A DNA stretch of 8,182 bases from an uncultured Erysipelotrichaceae bacterium (lineage in GTDB: Bacteria; Bacillota_I; Bacilli_A; Erysipelotrichales; Erysipelotrichaceae): NCBI GenBank assembly GCA_905201565.1, contig CAJKOS010000077.1, positions 1-8,182 of the forward strand. Direction: 5' to 3'. Below the pieces are notes generated by a model that did not search any database, was not told where the DNA came from, and was given only the letters and a program-made list of their open reading frames with translations. A program made the translations under genes and the position numbers. This document shows, piece after piece, positions 2,878 through 6,835 of this stretch. Within the stretch, counting starts at the first letter, position 1. Every line of letters begins with the position of its first letter.

Positions 2878-3375
2878 TCAGAAATCATCACCTGTCTGGT
2901 CAGAATATTCATCCCGTAACCACTTCAGAATGTTCTCCAGAGATGTGTTCAACACATCATTATCATCCATGTGCAGATCTTCGACAGCCTTGTCGATCAA
3001 CTGGGCATGGAAGTCATCATGGACTTTCAGAATCGCATCTGCTTTGTCAGTAAGGCGGATGCGGACAATACGGCGGTCATTTTCATCACCATAGCGTTCT
3101 ACATAGCCTTTCTTTTCAAGGCGGGCAATATTGGTTGTCAATGTGCCGGAAGTTACCATCATGCGTCTTGCAAGGTGACTCATGGTATTGGAACTTGAAT
3201 TGCGGATGCTTTCAAGAATATGCACTTCATTGATCGAAAGCTCAACGCCTTTGACTTTGAGGTTGTTGGCTTCGATGTAGAGAATGTAGTTGAAAAGACC
3301 GACAAGCAGTTCATTCAATGTATGCCGGGTTCTCTTTTCTGATGAAGTGATCATTTTACCGTTATTTTCGCTCAT
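2878..3375 (-). CDS. fabT: MarR-family regulator, FabT-like repressor of fatty-acid synthesis
   Basis: Predicted winged-helix repressor of 165 residues. FabT proteins bind DNA as dimers and bind more tightly in the presence of long-chain acyl-ACP, shutting down fatty-acid synthesis. A winged helix spans about 45-112, with the recognition region MVTSGTLTTNIARLEKKGYVER (73-94) and the wing DENDRRIVRIRLTD (97-110). The VTxGTLTT..LEKKGYVER pattern is close to streptococcal FabT. Flanking helices (12-44, 113-155) would form the dimer interface. The ATG at 3375 was chosen because a GAGAG ribosome-site-like stretch precedes it and a TATAAT lies upstream; a TTG start five codons earlier would begin almost at the expected transcript start. 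Position directly before acpP-accBCD supports the FabT assignment over other MarR proteins. Confidence 0.82.
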   Translation of the reverse strand: MSENNGKMITSSEKRTRHTLNELLVGLFNYILYIEANNLKVKGVELSINEVHILESIRNSSSNTMSHLARRMMVTSGTLTTNIARLEKKGYVERYGDENDRRIVRIRLTDKADAILKVHDDFHAQLIDKAVEDLHMDDNDVLNTSLENILKWLRDEYSDQTGDDF

Positions 3376-3394
3376 TTTTACTCTCAACAAATTT

Positions 3395-3400
3395 ATTATA
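3395..3400 (-). promoter_or_regulatory. Possible -10 element of fabT
   Basis: A perfect TATAAT on the minus strand, 19 bases before the fabT ATG. No good -35 hexamer is seen at 16-18 bases (the best is TATTAA, complement of 3418-3423), so the promoter may be weak. No ATTTGA/TCAAAT palindrome is present here, so I see no sign that FabT represses its own gene by the site used at acpP. Confidence 0.4.
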
Positions 3401-3506
3401 GCGGATATTTTTTGTGATTAATAGTCTGGTAATGTGTTTTGTGGAAGCTATTATATAGGTGTAAAAAGAAAGTACCAATAAAAACAAAGAAAGAGAGGTA
3501 CAAATC

Positions 3507-3533
3507 ATGAAGAAGGTGTTACTCGAATATTAG
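3507..3533 (+). CDS. Possible eight-residue leader ORF (MKKVLLEY)
   Basis: ATG followed by seven codons and TAG, preceded by an AGAGAGG ribosome-site-like stretch (3492-3498) eight bases away. The start resembles a real gene start (Met-Lys-Lys), but the frame closes after eight codons exactly where the first large stem of the structured region begins (TAGTTCA, 3531-3537). Reading on in this frame meets further stops at 3585-3587 and beyond. It could be a leader peptide, the 5' stub of a decayed gene, or chance. The ORF and spacing are seen; translation is unproven. Confidence 0.25.
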   Translation: MKKVLLEY

Positions 3534-3908
3534 TTCAGGTATTCCGAAATAATGCAGAAAGGTTTCGGGATACGGGTAATGAACTAAAACAAAAAGGTAT
3601 TTCTGGAAACCATTCACCTGTGTAAAATGACTGTCTGAAATAGACTCCAAGGAAAATACATCTGTTGACAAAGTGACTGAATAAAAGTTCCAGAAAAACC
3701 ACAAAAGAAAGTGAAAGTCTGCATGAGGACAGACCAATGGGCTGTATCATTTAAACAACTGAATAGAGTTATCAACTGATACAATGTATCAGTACAGTTA
3801 AGATTAATTCTTTCTTAAAGACAACAAACAAGTTGTCAGATATTGAAGCATAGCTTCAGCGGAAACAGAAATCCGTCTTCACTTCATTACAAGTTGCCAA
3901 TAAGATAC

Positions 3909-3976
3909 AAAGAAGAATCCGCCAAAAGAGATTGTTGGAAAAGTAGCAGCAGAGTCTCACCGGATTCTTCTTTTTG
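3909..3976 (+). terminator. Long-stem terminator ending the structured region
   Basis: A perfect 13-bp stem (3909-3921 with 3961-3973, core AAGAAGAATCCG/CGGATTCTTCTT) runs into a T-run at 3971-3975. The 39-base loop is itself partly paired (GAGATT 3928-3933 with AGTCTC 3953-3958, one G-U), so it folds as one extended hairpin. The T-run orientation indicates plus-strand transcription. It lies about 120 bases before the HAD gene, so it would insulate that gene or attenuate read-through into it. Confidence 0.7.
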
Positions 3977-4096
3977 GGTAGATTCATGAAAAGCTACAAA
4001 CGGGCGTTTTGTCATTCCTGCCATGCATTTGCACCACTGCTAGAGTAGAAGATCCAGTGATTGTGCAGTGCTCGTTTAACAAAAAGGAGTATTTGT

Positions 4097-4927
4097 ATGG
4101 CTGTTAAACTAATTGTAACAGATCTTGATGGGACGTTTTATCACCGTGATATGTCCTATGATAAGGAAAAGTTTGATAGACTTCTGGATCAGCTGCATGC
4201 GTCTGGTATCCGCTTTGCGGTTGCCAGCGGCAATCAGTATTACCAGCTGATATCCTTCTTTGATCATCCGGAGGAAATGGCATTTGTTGCTGAGAATGGC
4301 GCATTGATCATCAATGAGGGAAAAGAGCTTTCTGTGGCAGAAATTGAGCGTGACGTATGGACGGAGGCAGTCAGACTCGTGAAATCTTATCCGGAAATTC
4401 ATACGCTGCTGGTTAATGGTGTAAAGAGCGCATATTGTGGTATGGAATTGGATGATGAGCTAGTTAATATTTATCGGCGTTATTTTCCACGTCTTGAAAA
4501 GATAGAAGACTTTACTGCCATTGATGACCGCATTATCAAGATGTCTCTTGCGGCGGAAGAAGAACATGCGGACAGGATTGCGAATGAATTAAATGAGAAA
4601 CTGAGTGGCAGGTTGCGTGCAGTAACCAGTGGTCATGGGGATATTGATCTTGTCAAGCCAGGTATTAATAAGGGTATGGCAATCCAGAAATTATTGGATA
4701 TCTGGAATCTGAAAATGGAAGAAGTGATGACGTTTGGAGATGCCATGAATGACAGGGAGATGTTGCTGGAAGCAGGTTATGGATTTGTTATGGCAAATGG
4801 TAATGAACAATTGAAGAAAGAAGTTGGCAGGGTTGCTCCAAAGACAAATGAAGAAGATGGTGAACTGGAACTGATTGAGGAATATCTTACAGATCCGGAA
4901 AAGTTCCTGAACAAATACAAAAGGTAA
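4097..4927 (+). CDS. Cof-type HAD-superfamily hydrolase (sugar-phosphate or nucleotide phosphatase)
   Basis: Cytoplasmic Mg-dependent phosphatase of 276 residues, the normal length for subfamily IIB. All four HAD motifs are visible: I, DLDGT with the nucleophile D9 and acid D11; II, VASGN with S45; III, K192 in KPGINKGMAI; IV, GDAMND (214-219) with D215 and D219. The alpha/beta cap lies between motifs II and III (about 85-185). SGNQYYQL resembles YbjI/SupH-like members, which act on phosphosugars or FMN-type substrates, but substrate cannot be read from the sequence. The ATG at 4097 was chosen because GGAG (4086-4089) stands seven bases before it; an in-frame TTG twelve codons earlier has no such site. 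The LCP gene follows after 61 bases with no terminator between, so the two may share a transcript. Confidence 0.9.
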   Translation: MAVKLIVTDLDGTFYHRDMSYDKEKFDRLLDQLHASGIRFAVASGNQYYQLISFFDHPEEMAFVAENGALIINEGKELSVAEIERDVWTEAVRLVKSYPEIHTLLVNGVKSAYCGMELDDELVNIYRRYFPRLEKIEDFTAIDDRIIKMSLAAEEEHADRIANELNEKLSGRLRAVTSGHGDIDLVKPGINKGMAIQKLLDIWNLKMEEVMTFGDAMNDREMLLEAGYGFVMANGNEQLKKEVGRVAPKTNEEDGELELIEEYLTDPEKFLNKYKR

Positions 4928-6154: not shown

Positions 6155-6835
6155 ATGAATTTCAAAAAACTGACTTCTGTTTTGGCAGCAGGTCTGCTGT
6201 CATTCACATGCGCTACTGCTGTAAACGCTGAAGACTTTTACGGCAGTAAAACACAGGGTGGCACAGCAATCTCTGGTAGTTCTACTGTAACAACAGCAAA
6301 GGGTACATCTGTAACTGTTTATGCTGAAGATAATGCAGTGACTCAGTCTCTTCGTGCTTCTTTGAAATCTGCAGGTAGCATTGAAGCTTTCTTTAAAGCA
6401 GAAGGTGCTTCTGGACTTGTCAGCGAACTTGCTGCAGTTGCAGGTAATGTTGACGATCTTGTCTGCTTGGATGTTGTTGATGTAAACATCGGTGAAGCTA
6501 CACTTGCTGAAGGTGATTCTGTTCAGGTTTCTCTGGATGTTCAGGGCATTCTTGCTGGTGATAAGGTAATTGCTGCACATAAGCGTTCTGATGGCGCTTG
6601 GGAACTTGTTGATGCATCTGCTCCAGCAAATGATACAGTTACAATCACAATGACAAGCTTCTCACCTGTTATGATCTTCAAAGATCAGACACCTAATAAT
6701 GGTTCTACTCAGAACAATAACAATGCTCCTGTCACAGGTAACTACACAAACATCGCTCTCTGGGGTGGTGTCCTTGTCGTAGCAGTTGCTGCAGCTGGTA
6801 TTGTACTTTTCGAAAAGAAGAGAAAGGCTAACTAA
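6155..6835 (+). CDS. Secreted, probably wall-anchored surface protein with noncanonical sortase-like signal
   Basis: 226-residue exported protein. It has a signal peptide at 1-25 (basic NFKK start, hydrophobic core, predicted cleavage AVNA-ED) and a Ser/Thr/Ala/Val-rich extracellular region (about 30-175). Its second half (119-175, with AHKRSDGAWELVDAS and ending SFSPVMIF) resembles a beta-sandwich module often seen in gut-Firmicute surface proteins, by impression only. An Asn-rich spacer (181-190), APVTG (191-195), a membrane segment (about 202-219) and a KKRK tail follow. The layout equals a sortase signal with Ala in place of the first Leu of LPXTG. A strong GGAGGG (6142-6147) sits seven bases before the ATG. 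Codon use (GCA, GCT, GTT, TCT, GGT) is more uniform than in the neighbours, suggesting high expression. Function unknown; the alternative is a membrane-anchored protein without sortase processing. Confidence 0.85.
   Translation: MNFKKLTSVLAAGLLSFTCATAVNAEDFYGSKTQGGTAISGSSTVTTAKGTSVTVYAEDNAVTQSLRASLKSAGSIEAFFKAEGASGLVSELAAVAGNVDDLVCLDVVDVNIGEATLAEGDSVQVSLDVQGILAGDKVIAAHKRSDGAWELVDASAPANDTVTITMTSFSPVMIFKDQTPNNGSTQNNNNAPVTGNYTNIALWGGVLVVAVAAAGIVLFEKKRKAN

Follow-up and report, generated by a model that had tools for sequence, protein, structure and literature searches.

The loop of a hairpin in the repY–repZ system (ColIb-P9) pairs with a strand lying just before the ribosome site of the next open reading frame (ORF), and the product of this pairing is a pseudoknot. 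This leader–pseudoknot system is said to have been described by Asano and Mizobuchi in 1998. RNAIII, SR1 and SgrS are dual-function small RNAs, which are stand-alone, structured and peptide-encoding. A leader ORF is needed for the expression of repA in I-complex plasmids, according to one account (PMC10286972). Comparative surveys of uORF attenuators and small ORF candidates describe a Shine–Dalgarno (SD) sequence and a short conserved ORF beside a structured RNA (PMC6429828, PMC11109978).

The RNA considered here is encoded in a stretch of 8,182 nucleotides from an uncultured Erysipelotrichaceae bacterium, referred to below as the window, and invites comparison with each of these systems. It shares with repY–repZ and repB–repA a leader ORF and a hairpin loop complementary to a strand before the next ribosome site. 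By contrast with repY–repZ, however, it is accompanied by no replication gene and has no plasmid match as far as searched; furthermore, the putatively controlled ORF (ORF2) is a mini-ORF, the peptide of the leader ORF (ORF1) is conserved, and modules are repeated. Like the uORF attenuators and small ORF candidates, it has an SD and a short conserved ORF adjoining a structured RNA, whilst differing from them in having no consistent downstream gene and in a covarying hairpin and pseudoknot which link two mini-ORFs. As in the dual-function small RNAs, a stand-alone structured RNA appears to be combined with a predicted encoded peptide, albeit with a pair of mini-ORFs, roughly 8 and 5 codons long, and with module repeats. 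Finally, its size and stand-alone position recall RNase P, tmRNA, OLE, GOLLD and ROOL, but it reaches no Rfam cut-off.

Distribution of the RNA family

The minus strand of the window carries genes for an acyl carrier protein and for a regulator of the MarR family, fabT judging by its position, together with others which we take to encode parts of acetyl-CoA carboxylase; the last gene, also on the minus strand, encodes a protein whose HipA_C match falls short of the cut-off. Repeats of the form TCAAAT/ATTTGA at 2710–2745, before the acyl carrier protein gene, are perhaps a FabT-type operator. On the plus strand are genes for a HAD hydrolase, a LytR–CpsA–Psr protein and a protein of 226 amino acids without a Pfam match (6155–6835), the last of which looks secreted and has a C-terminal membrane stretch and a basic tail. 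Between fabT and the HAD gene, an earlier note on the window had placed a possible large structured RNA at 3461–3976. This RNA is a member of a real, previously unmodelled, predicted RNA family.

A DNA search at E 0.001 gave matches in 68 of the 272 genomes of the bacterial family; 60 loci (L039–L098) were fetched, and an iterated profile detects the element in all 60 as well as in the window. A covariance model of 168 positions, R1, was built from an alignment (A1) of 37 relatives selected for short inserts (no more than 130 nt from ORF1 to the core). It scores the window at 106.3 bits and matches all 61 sources, that is, the 60 loci and the window. Searches of over 40 genomes use stricter filters, and the following counts are therefore lower bounds: R1 has matches in at least 89 of the 272 family genomes, in at least 89 of 315 genomes of the order, every one of them with a handle of the family set, and, at E 0.0001, in at least 7 of a class-wide draw of 395 genomes, an unstated number of which are from the family; all 7 carry handles of the family set. 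No R1 match was found in the 43 non-family genomes of the order. The proposal of a structured RNA is thus borne out by a conserved element of about 500 nt with relatives in these 89 family genomes. A weak second R1 match inside the HAD gene (window 4733–4816; 16.9 bits, E 0.013) was taken as chance.

The earlier note recognised no known RNA core, in agreement with the Rfam covariance search. At the gathering scores of Rfam 15 there were no matches for the window, none in 20 relatives and none in 16 divergent or sibling loci, and under a lax limit the window gave sub-threshold matches only (best E 0.77). A known housekeeping RNA was rejected on this ground and because a separate tmRNA is located elsewhere, above the cut-off, in nine of ten of these genomes (in G063 it lies below the cut-off). 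A phage or plasmid RNA was likewise rejected, there being no blastn match among phages or plasmids; an exact search of viral contigs for one 23-base core pattern, which differently lettered relatives would escape, also found none. No title or abstract opening in the literature on Erysipelotrichaceae or on leader–pseudoknot RNAs describes the RNA, and no paper was found on the two commonest peptides, supplements and most subscription papers being outside the scope of these searches.

Anatomy of the element

Alignments give the order of elements as SD1, mini-ORF1, hairpin H1, a variable insert, the core, mini-ORF2 and variable 3' stems, the consensus of the core being AGAAAGUGAAAGUCUGCAUGAGGACAGACCAAUGG. 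The anatomy of the RNA, predicted from these comparisons, can be given with great confidence, and the features in the window are as follows.

3383–3454, no strand assigned: composite near-palindromic promoter region, from 49 aligned promoter regions; its parts are CTCAACA (3383–3389), TATTATA (3394–3400; TATAATA on the minus strand), AGTCT (3423–3427; AGACT in most relatives) and a −10-like TATTAT (3449–3454)
3461–3976, plus strand: predicted stand-alone transcript with predicted start and end, from the fold (z −4.83) and the end of identity to the sister genome
3472–3501, plus strand: possible SD1-masking stem of GUACC (3472–3476) with GGUAC (3497–3501), from the predicted fold
3493–3501, plus strand: SD1, GAGAGGUAC (GGAGGUAC in most relatives)
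3507–3533, plus strand: mini-ORF1, MKKVLLEY*, 8 codons, its peptide kept through synonymous change
3539–3573, plus strand: hairpin H1, 3539–3550 with 3562–3573, from fold and covariation
3553–3558, plus strand: first strand of the pseudoknot, UGCAGA, within the loop of H1, from complement analyses
3574–3705, plus strand: insert of variable length with the 3596–3608/3688–3700 stem
3717–3734, plus strand: alternative hairpin H2, 3717–3721 with 3730–3734, with SD2 in its loop; it excludes the pseudoknot
3718–3723, plus strand: second strand of the pseudoknot, UCUGCA, one nt ahead of SD2
3725–3729, plus strand: SD2, GAGGA, from its GG-to-AUG spacing
3737–3754, plus strand: mini-ORF2, MGCII*, 5 codons, with an in-frame stop
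3909–3976, plus strand: terminator-like stem 3909–3921/3961–3973 with a T-run, from the repeat and the end of sister identity behind it

The plus strand of 3461–3976 folds at −123.7 kcal/mol, compared with −95.5 (s.d. 5.8) for 100 dinucleotide shuffles, none of which reaches as low; the minus strand of the same region also folds well (z −3.43). Several pairings first noticed by eye are indeed present: the 13-bp terminal stem with its T-run, the 12-of-13 long-range match at 3596–3608/3688–3700 and, in the two-part arm described at 3531–3586, the hairpin H1, which is predicted and backed by covariation. The count of at least eight inverted repeats needs qualifying, as only two of 12 nt or more are listed in 3391–4096 and the rest would be shorter stems, for example those of the predicted fold. 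Nested long-range pairing was not confirmed as a core feature. The 3596–3700 stem sits in a stretch of variable length, even the sister genome lacks its exact 3' arm, and the ORF1-to-core distance is 199 nt in the window and at most 130 nt in the 37 relatives selected for that property. An RNase P- or OLE-like nested architecture is not supported, and the element is predicted not to be a purely noncoding, nested large RNA. The stops that had been read as disrupting protein coding are real, but they terminate conserved mini-ORFs, and an absence of coding is not supported.

ORF1 varies like a coding sequence, and its translation is predicted. Amongst 74 distinct 24-mers, codon 5 specifies Leu in 72, by way of six different codons, and codon 6 in 64, with diversity at codon positions 1, 2 and 3 of 0.36, 0.14 and 0.47. 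Amino-acid identity is 0.659, compared with 0.570 (s.d. 0.007) in column shuffles, of which 0 of 500 reach it, in a test that is not independent of selection because the set was gathered with a degenerate motif from the first alignment (up to six mismatches, plus an SD filter) whose degenerate positions partly favour Leu codons. The same pattern is seen in 63 rows (61 loci) chosen by nucleotide profile. An ORF1 match is found in 98 of 102 loci: L046 failed the SD filter, and L129, L133 and L145 failed the length limit, their frames being read as running for 14, 14 and 22 codons, respectively. Three of the 126 matches look stray (MKMAILK*, MKKQLSMYKKK* and MKKLIK*) and were kept in the statistics. 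Thus a leader ORF with its own SD, as in repY–repZ, is indicated by the coding signature. The stem which may mask SD1 is seen in many relatives, albeit not in all.

In all 99 distinct RNAs, the best hairpin behind ORF1 starts 0–7 nt past the stop codon, in a search which looks no further than 13 nt from that codon and always returns its best candidate. Compensatory changes, which the earlier note had proposed to look for in relatives, are present in H1: in A1 both sides have changed at 8 of the 10 modelled pairs, and pairing holds in 86% of cells. Over the H1 and pseudoknot pairs, the covariation score is 0.434, compared with 0.181 when shuffled (0 of 500) and with no more than 0.282 for slid partners.

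An element of the H1 loop is complementary to a strand which lies one or two nt ahead of SD2, and changes in the two are compensated. Restrictive patterns parsed 61 RNAs, in all of which the four middle pairs of the pseudoknot were standard. Double changes from GC to CG and from CG to UA each form one clade on the tree of the RNA itself, and the sixth pair, standard in only 70%, is GC twice and CG once besides UA. This parse set L055 aside from 62 RNAs, L084 having failed earlier; a fixed-window test covers both. In a fold-free test, a perfect complement of at least 5 nt is found in 74 of 84 distinct RNAs, compared with 22 of 84 with reversed loops, so that those 74 share with repY–repZ a loop which can pair with the strand just ahead of the next SD. 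Where TCTGC is missing from the core (37 RNAs), 27 still pair, one of them (L105) probably by a chance match, against a mean of 9.7 and a maximum of 18 in 2000 permutations of partners; the alternative pairs include GUAGA/UCUAC, CCAGA/UCUGG, ACAGA/UCUGU, UCAGACA/UGUCUGA and GCCUG/CAGGC. Four loci (L130, L132, L136 and L146) have lost both pseudoknot strands and retain no complement on either side.

ORF2 is likely to be a translated frame. The GG of SD2 lies 8 nt from its AUG in 92 of 99 RNAs, SD2 having been found, here as in the fold-free test, by a pattern which limits the spacing and at times picks the wrong place (L047, L138, L139). In 98 of 99 RNAs the frame is closed by a stop within 12 codons, a length at which ORF2 does not qualify as a replication initiator; it comes after 5 codons in 62 (48 in an earlier set of 62) and after 6 in 11. 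Conservation of the ACUGAAUA that follows gives rise to stop peaks in other frames as well, and the ORF2 peptide varies among relatives. H2 forms when GUCUG of the pseudoknot strand pairs instead with CAGAC across SD2. It is possible in 79 of 99 distinct RNAs, shows little covariation and is missing by eye in L131, L134 and L135, which keep the pseudoknot; so the pseudoknot would be the more widespread of the two, H2 being an alternative confined to some lineages. With 20 of the 99 lacking it, H2 was rejected as a family-wide switch state.

The boundaries originally suggested for the element fit the sequence: 3461 agrees with a start site just behind the −10-like TATTAT, and the sister genome ceases to be alignable just past the T-run, near 3976. 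The element is likely a stand-alone transcript.

Possible functions and gene neighbourhood

The account of the RNA which we favour, and which we regard as evenly poised between right and wrong, is that of a stand-alone RNA in which translated ORF1 controls ORF2 through the pseudoknot. Transcription would start near 3461, and a ribosome at the ORF1 stop would melt the lower part of H1. On its departure H1 would refold, allowing its loop to pair with the strand abutting SD2. The pseudoknot would then present SD2, whilst H2, where it exists, would hide it in a 'closed' state, and the RNA would thereby report how well ORF1 is initiated or terminated. Since no downstream gene is shared, the output is likely to act in trans or to be the micro-peptide itself. 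The switch logic is apparently not essential everywhere, because L141 is without core and ORF2 and the four loci named above have lost the pseudoknot strands.

The first alternative, somewhat unlikely in our view, is that the RNA makes one or more copies of an 8–10-residue ORF1 peptide, the hairpins serving to insulate or stabilise it and the pseudoknot merely tuning decay or ribosome recycling. Such a messenger would account for an ORF1 peptide kept by synonymous change and for the repetition of modules. Three SD–ORF1–hairpin modules precede one core in L053 and L067, and two do so in L049, L051, L062, L064 and L092; L061 has two whole units; and four modules are seen by eye in L141, differently spelled and with no core and no ORF2, three of them passing the SD filter. 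Both the loop-to-SD2 complement, kept with changing letters, and the kept SD2 spacing would however be left unexplained. In L049, L051, L062 and L064, the complementary loop is found only in the module nearest the core.

It is improbable that the RNA acts in trans by base-pairing or ribosome binding, with the purine-rich core AGAAAGUGAAAGUCUGCAUGAGGA and the SD copies pairing with mRNAs or the 16S tail and the mini-ORFs protecting or loading the RNA. The most conserved stretch is single-stranded and SD-like, which would suit this role, as would the stand-alone position, but the codon-level conservation of ORF1 would go unexplained.

That the RNA is a cis leader, or attenuates the gene downstream of it, has very little probability. 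In favour of this, at 20 of 61 loci the closest ORF downstream is that of an aminopeptidase P-like gene. The nearest downstream ORF of at least 100 amino acids lies on the same strand at 35 of the 61 loci and on the opposite strand at 23, none being found before the end at 3, and there is no consistent same-strand gene downstream over the 61 loci as would befit a cis uORF attenuator. Since 23 of the 58 loci having such an ORF carry it on the opposite strand, a cis leader role is unlikely; the terminator-like end and the different context in the sister genome also argue against it. The sister genome, that of an uncultured Erysipelotrichaceae bacterium, was found through its HAD protein, which is 89% identical. 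Its HAD gene has another gene upstream, read as a PTS IIB gene, and the gap that is 90% identical to window 3391–3978 is on a different contig, where the RNA adjoins genes common to the window, including the fabT-like one. Thus, of the two possibilities raised at the outset, a stand-alone transcript is the most likely, whilst a leader of the HAD gene is not supported. Lastly, a decayed protein gene, foreseen in the earlier note as a refutation and suggested by stops in all frames, can be dismissed as contradicted by covariation, synonymous change and family-wide conservation.

Promoter and sibling RNAs

The 49 aligned promoter regions, a subset of 63 listed, include three from sibling loci and align nearly gap-free. 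A simple sigma-70 consensus scan of the promoter region found no plus-strand site, one minus-strand site (3478–3450) and fewer sites than shuffled sequences give. A plus-strand promoter would therefore need a different factor or an activator. A sequence-only promoter model, R2, was run on 16 genomes and gave 25 matches at E 1e-6 or better, many of which belonged to its own alignment. The composite promoter is near-palindromic, and R2 also weakly matches its own reverse strand. A minus-strand terminator-like hairpin occurs within 70 nt of TTGTTGGG in 32 of 49 regions, compared with 1.0 expected from mononucleotide shuffles, which suggests a very short divergent transcript from the composite promoter in relatives. 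In the window and the sister genome, fabT stands on the divergent side in place of this hairpin, and most relatives have there a gene read as NUDIX-like. In the window fabT starts directly behind a divergent TATAAT (3375–3400, minus strand), and the RNA and fabT may share one promoter region.

Seventeen of the R2 matches precede this RNA and 8 precede other loci, three of these 8 being siblings used to build R2. Read by eye, five of the 8 (L158, L163, L167, L173 and L174) have an SD and a mini-ORF with PGI (MKPGIYEGR*, MGPGISGGRF*, MKPGIYGGRS*, MRSPGISGGSAV* and MRSPGIYTGR*), and L162 and L170 have an SD and the Cys-ending mini-ORFs MRYIRAVC* and MLRRGIC*; in the remaining one no mini-ORF is readable. 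In each of the seven sibling loci with mini-ORFs, inspection by eye also shows a short hairpin that lies at the stop or spans it.

A possible, if tentative, generalisation is that of a new class of regulator: gene-less mini-ORF/hairpin RNAs which would sense ribosomes, be linked by a pseudoknot to a second mini-ORF and be co-regulated with sibling micro-peptide RNAs from the same promoter, forming a micro-peptide RNA regulon of one family. If control of ORF2 by ORF1 through the pseudoknot is true, the leader-ORF and pseudoknot logic of plasmid replication would also operate in a free-standing RNA without a main gene, an 8-residue peptide would be kept by selection across a bacterial family, and the RNA would offer a case, open to direct test, in which a stand-alone RNA reads ribosomes as its signal. 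The covariance model provides a means to find more such RNAs.

Two loci with promoter-model matches, L171 (strong) and L175 (weak), have no readable mini-ORF and no Rfam match; they share a stretch like UCUG(C/U)AGCCCGAGC(A/U)GAAA. The −10 and early transcribed part alone (TATTATAT.GGTGTAAA) also precedes other ORFs, at L101, L102 and L108.
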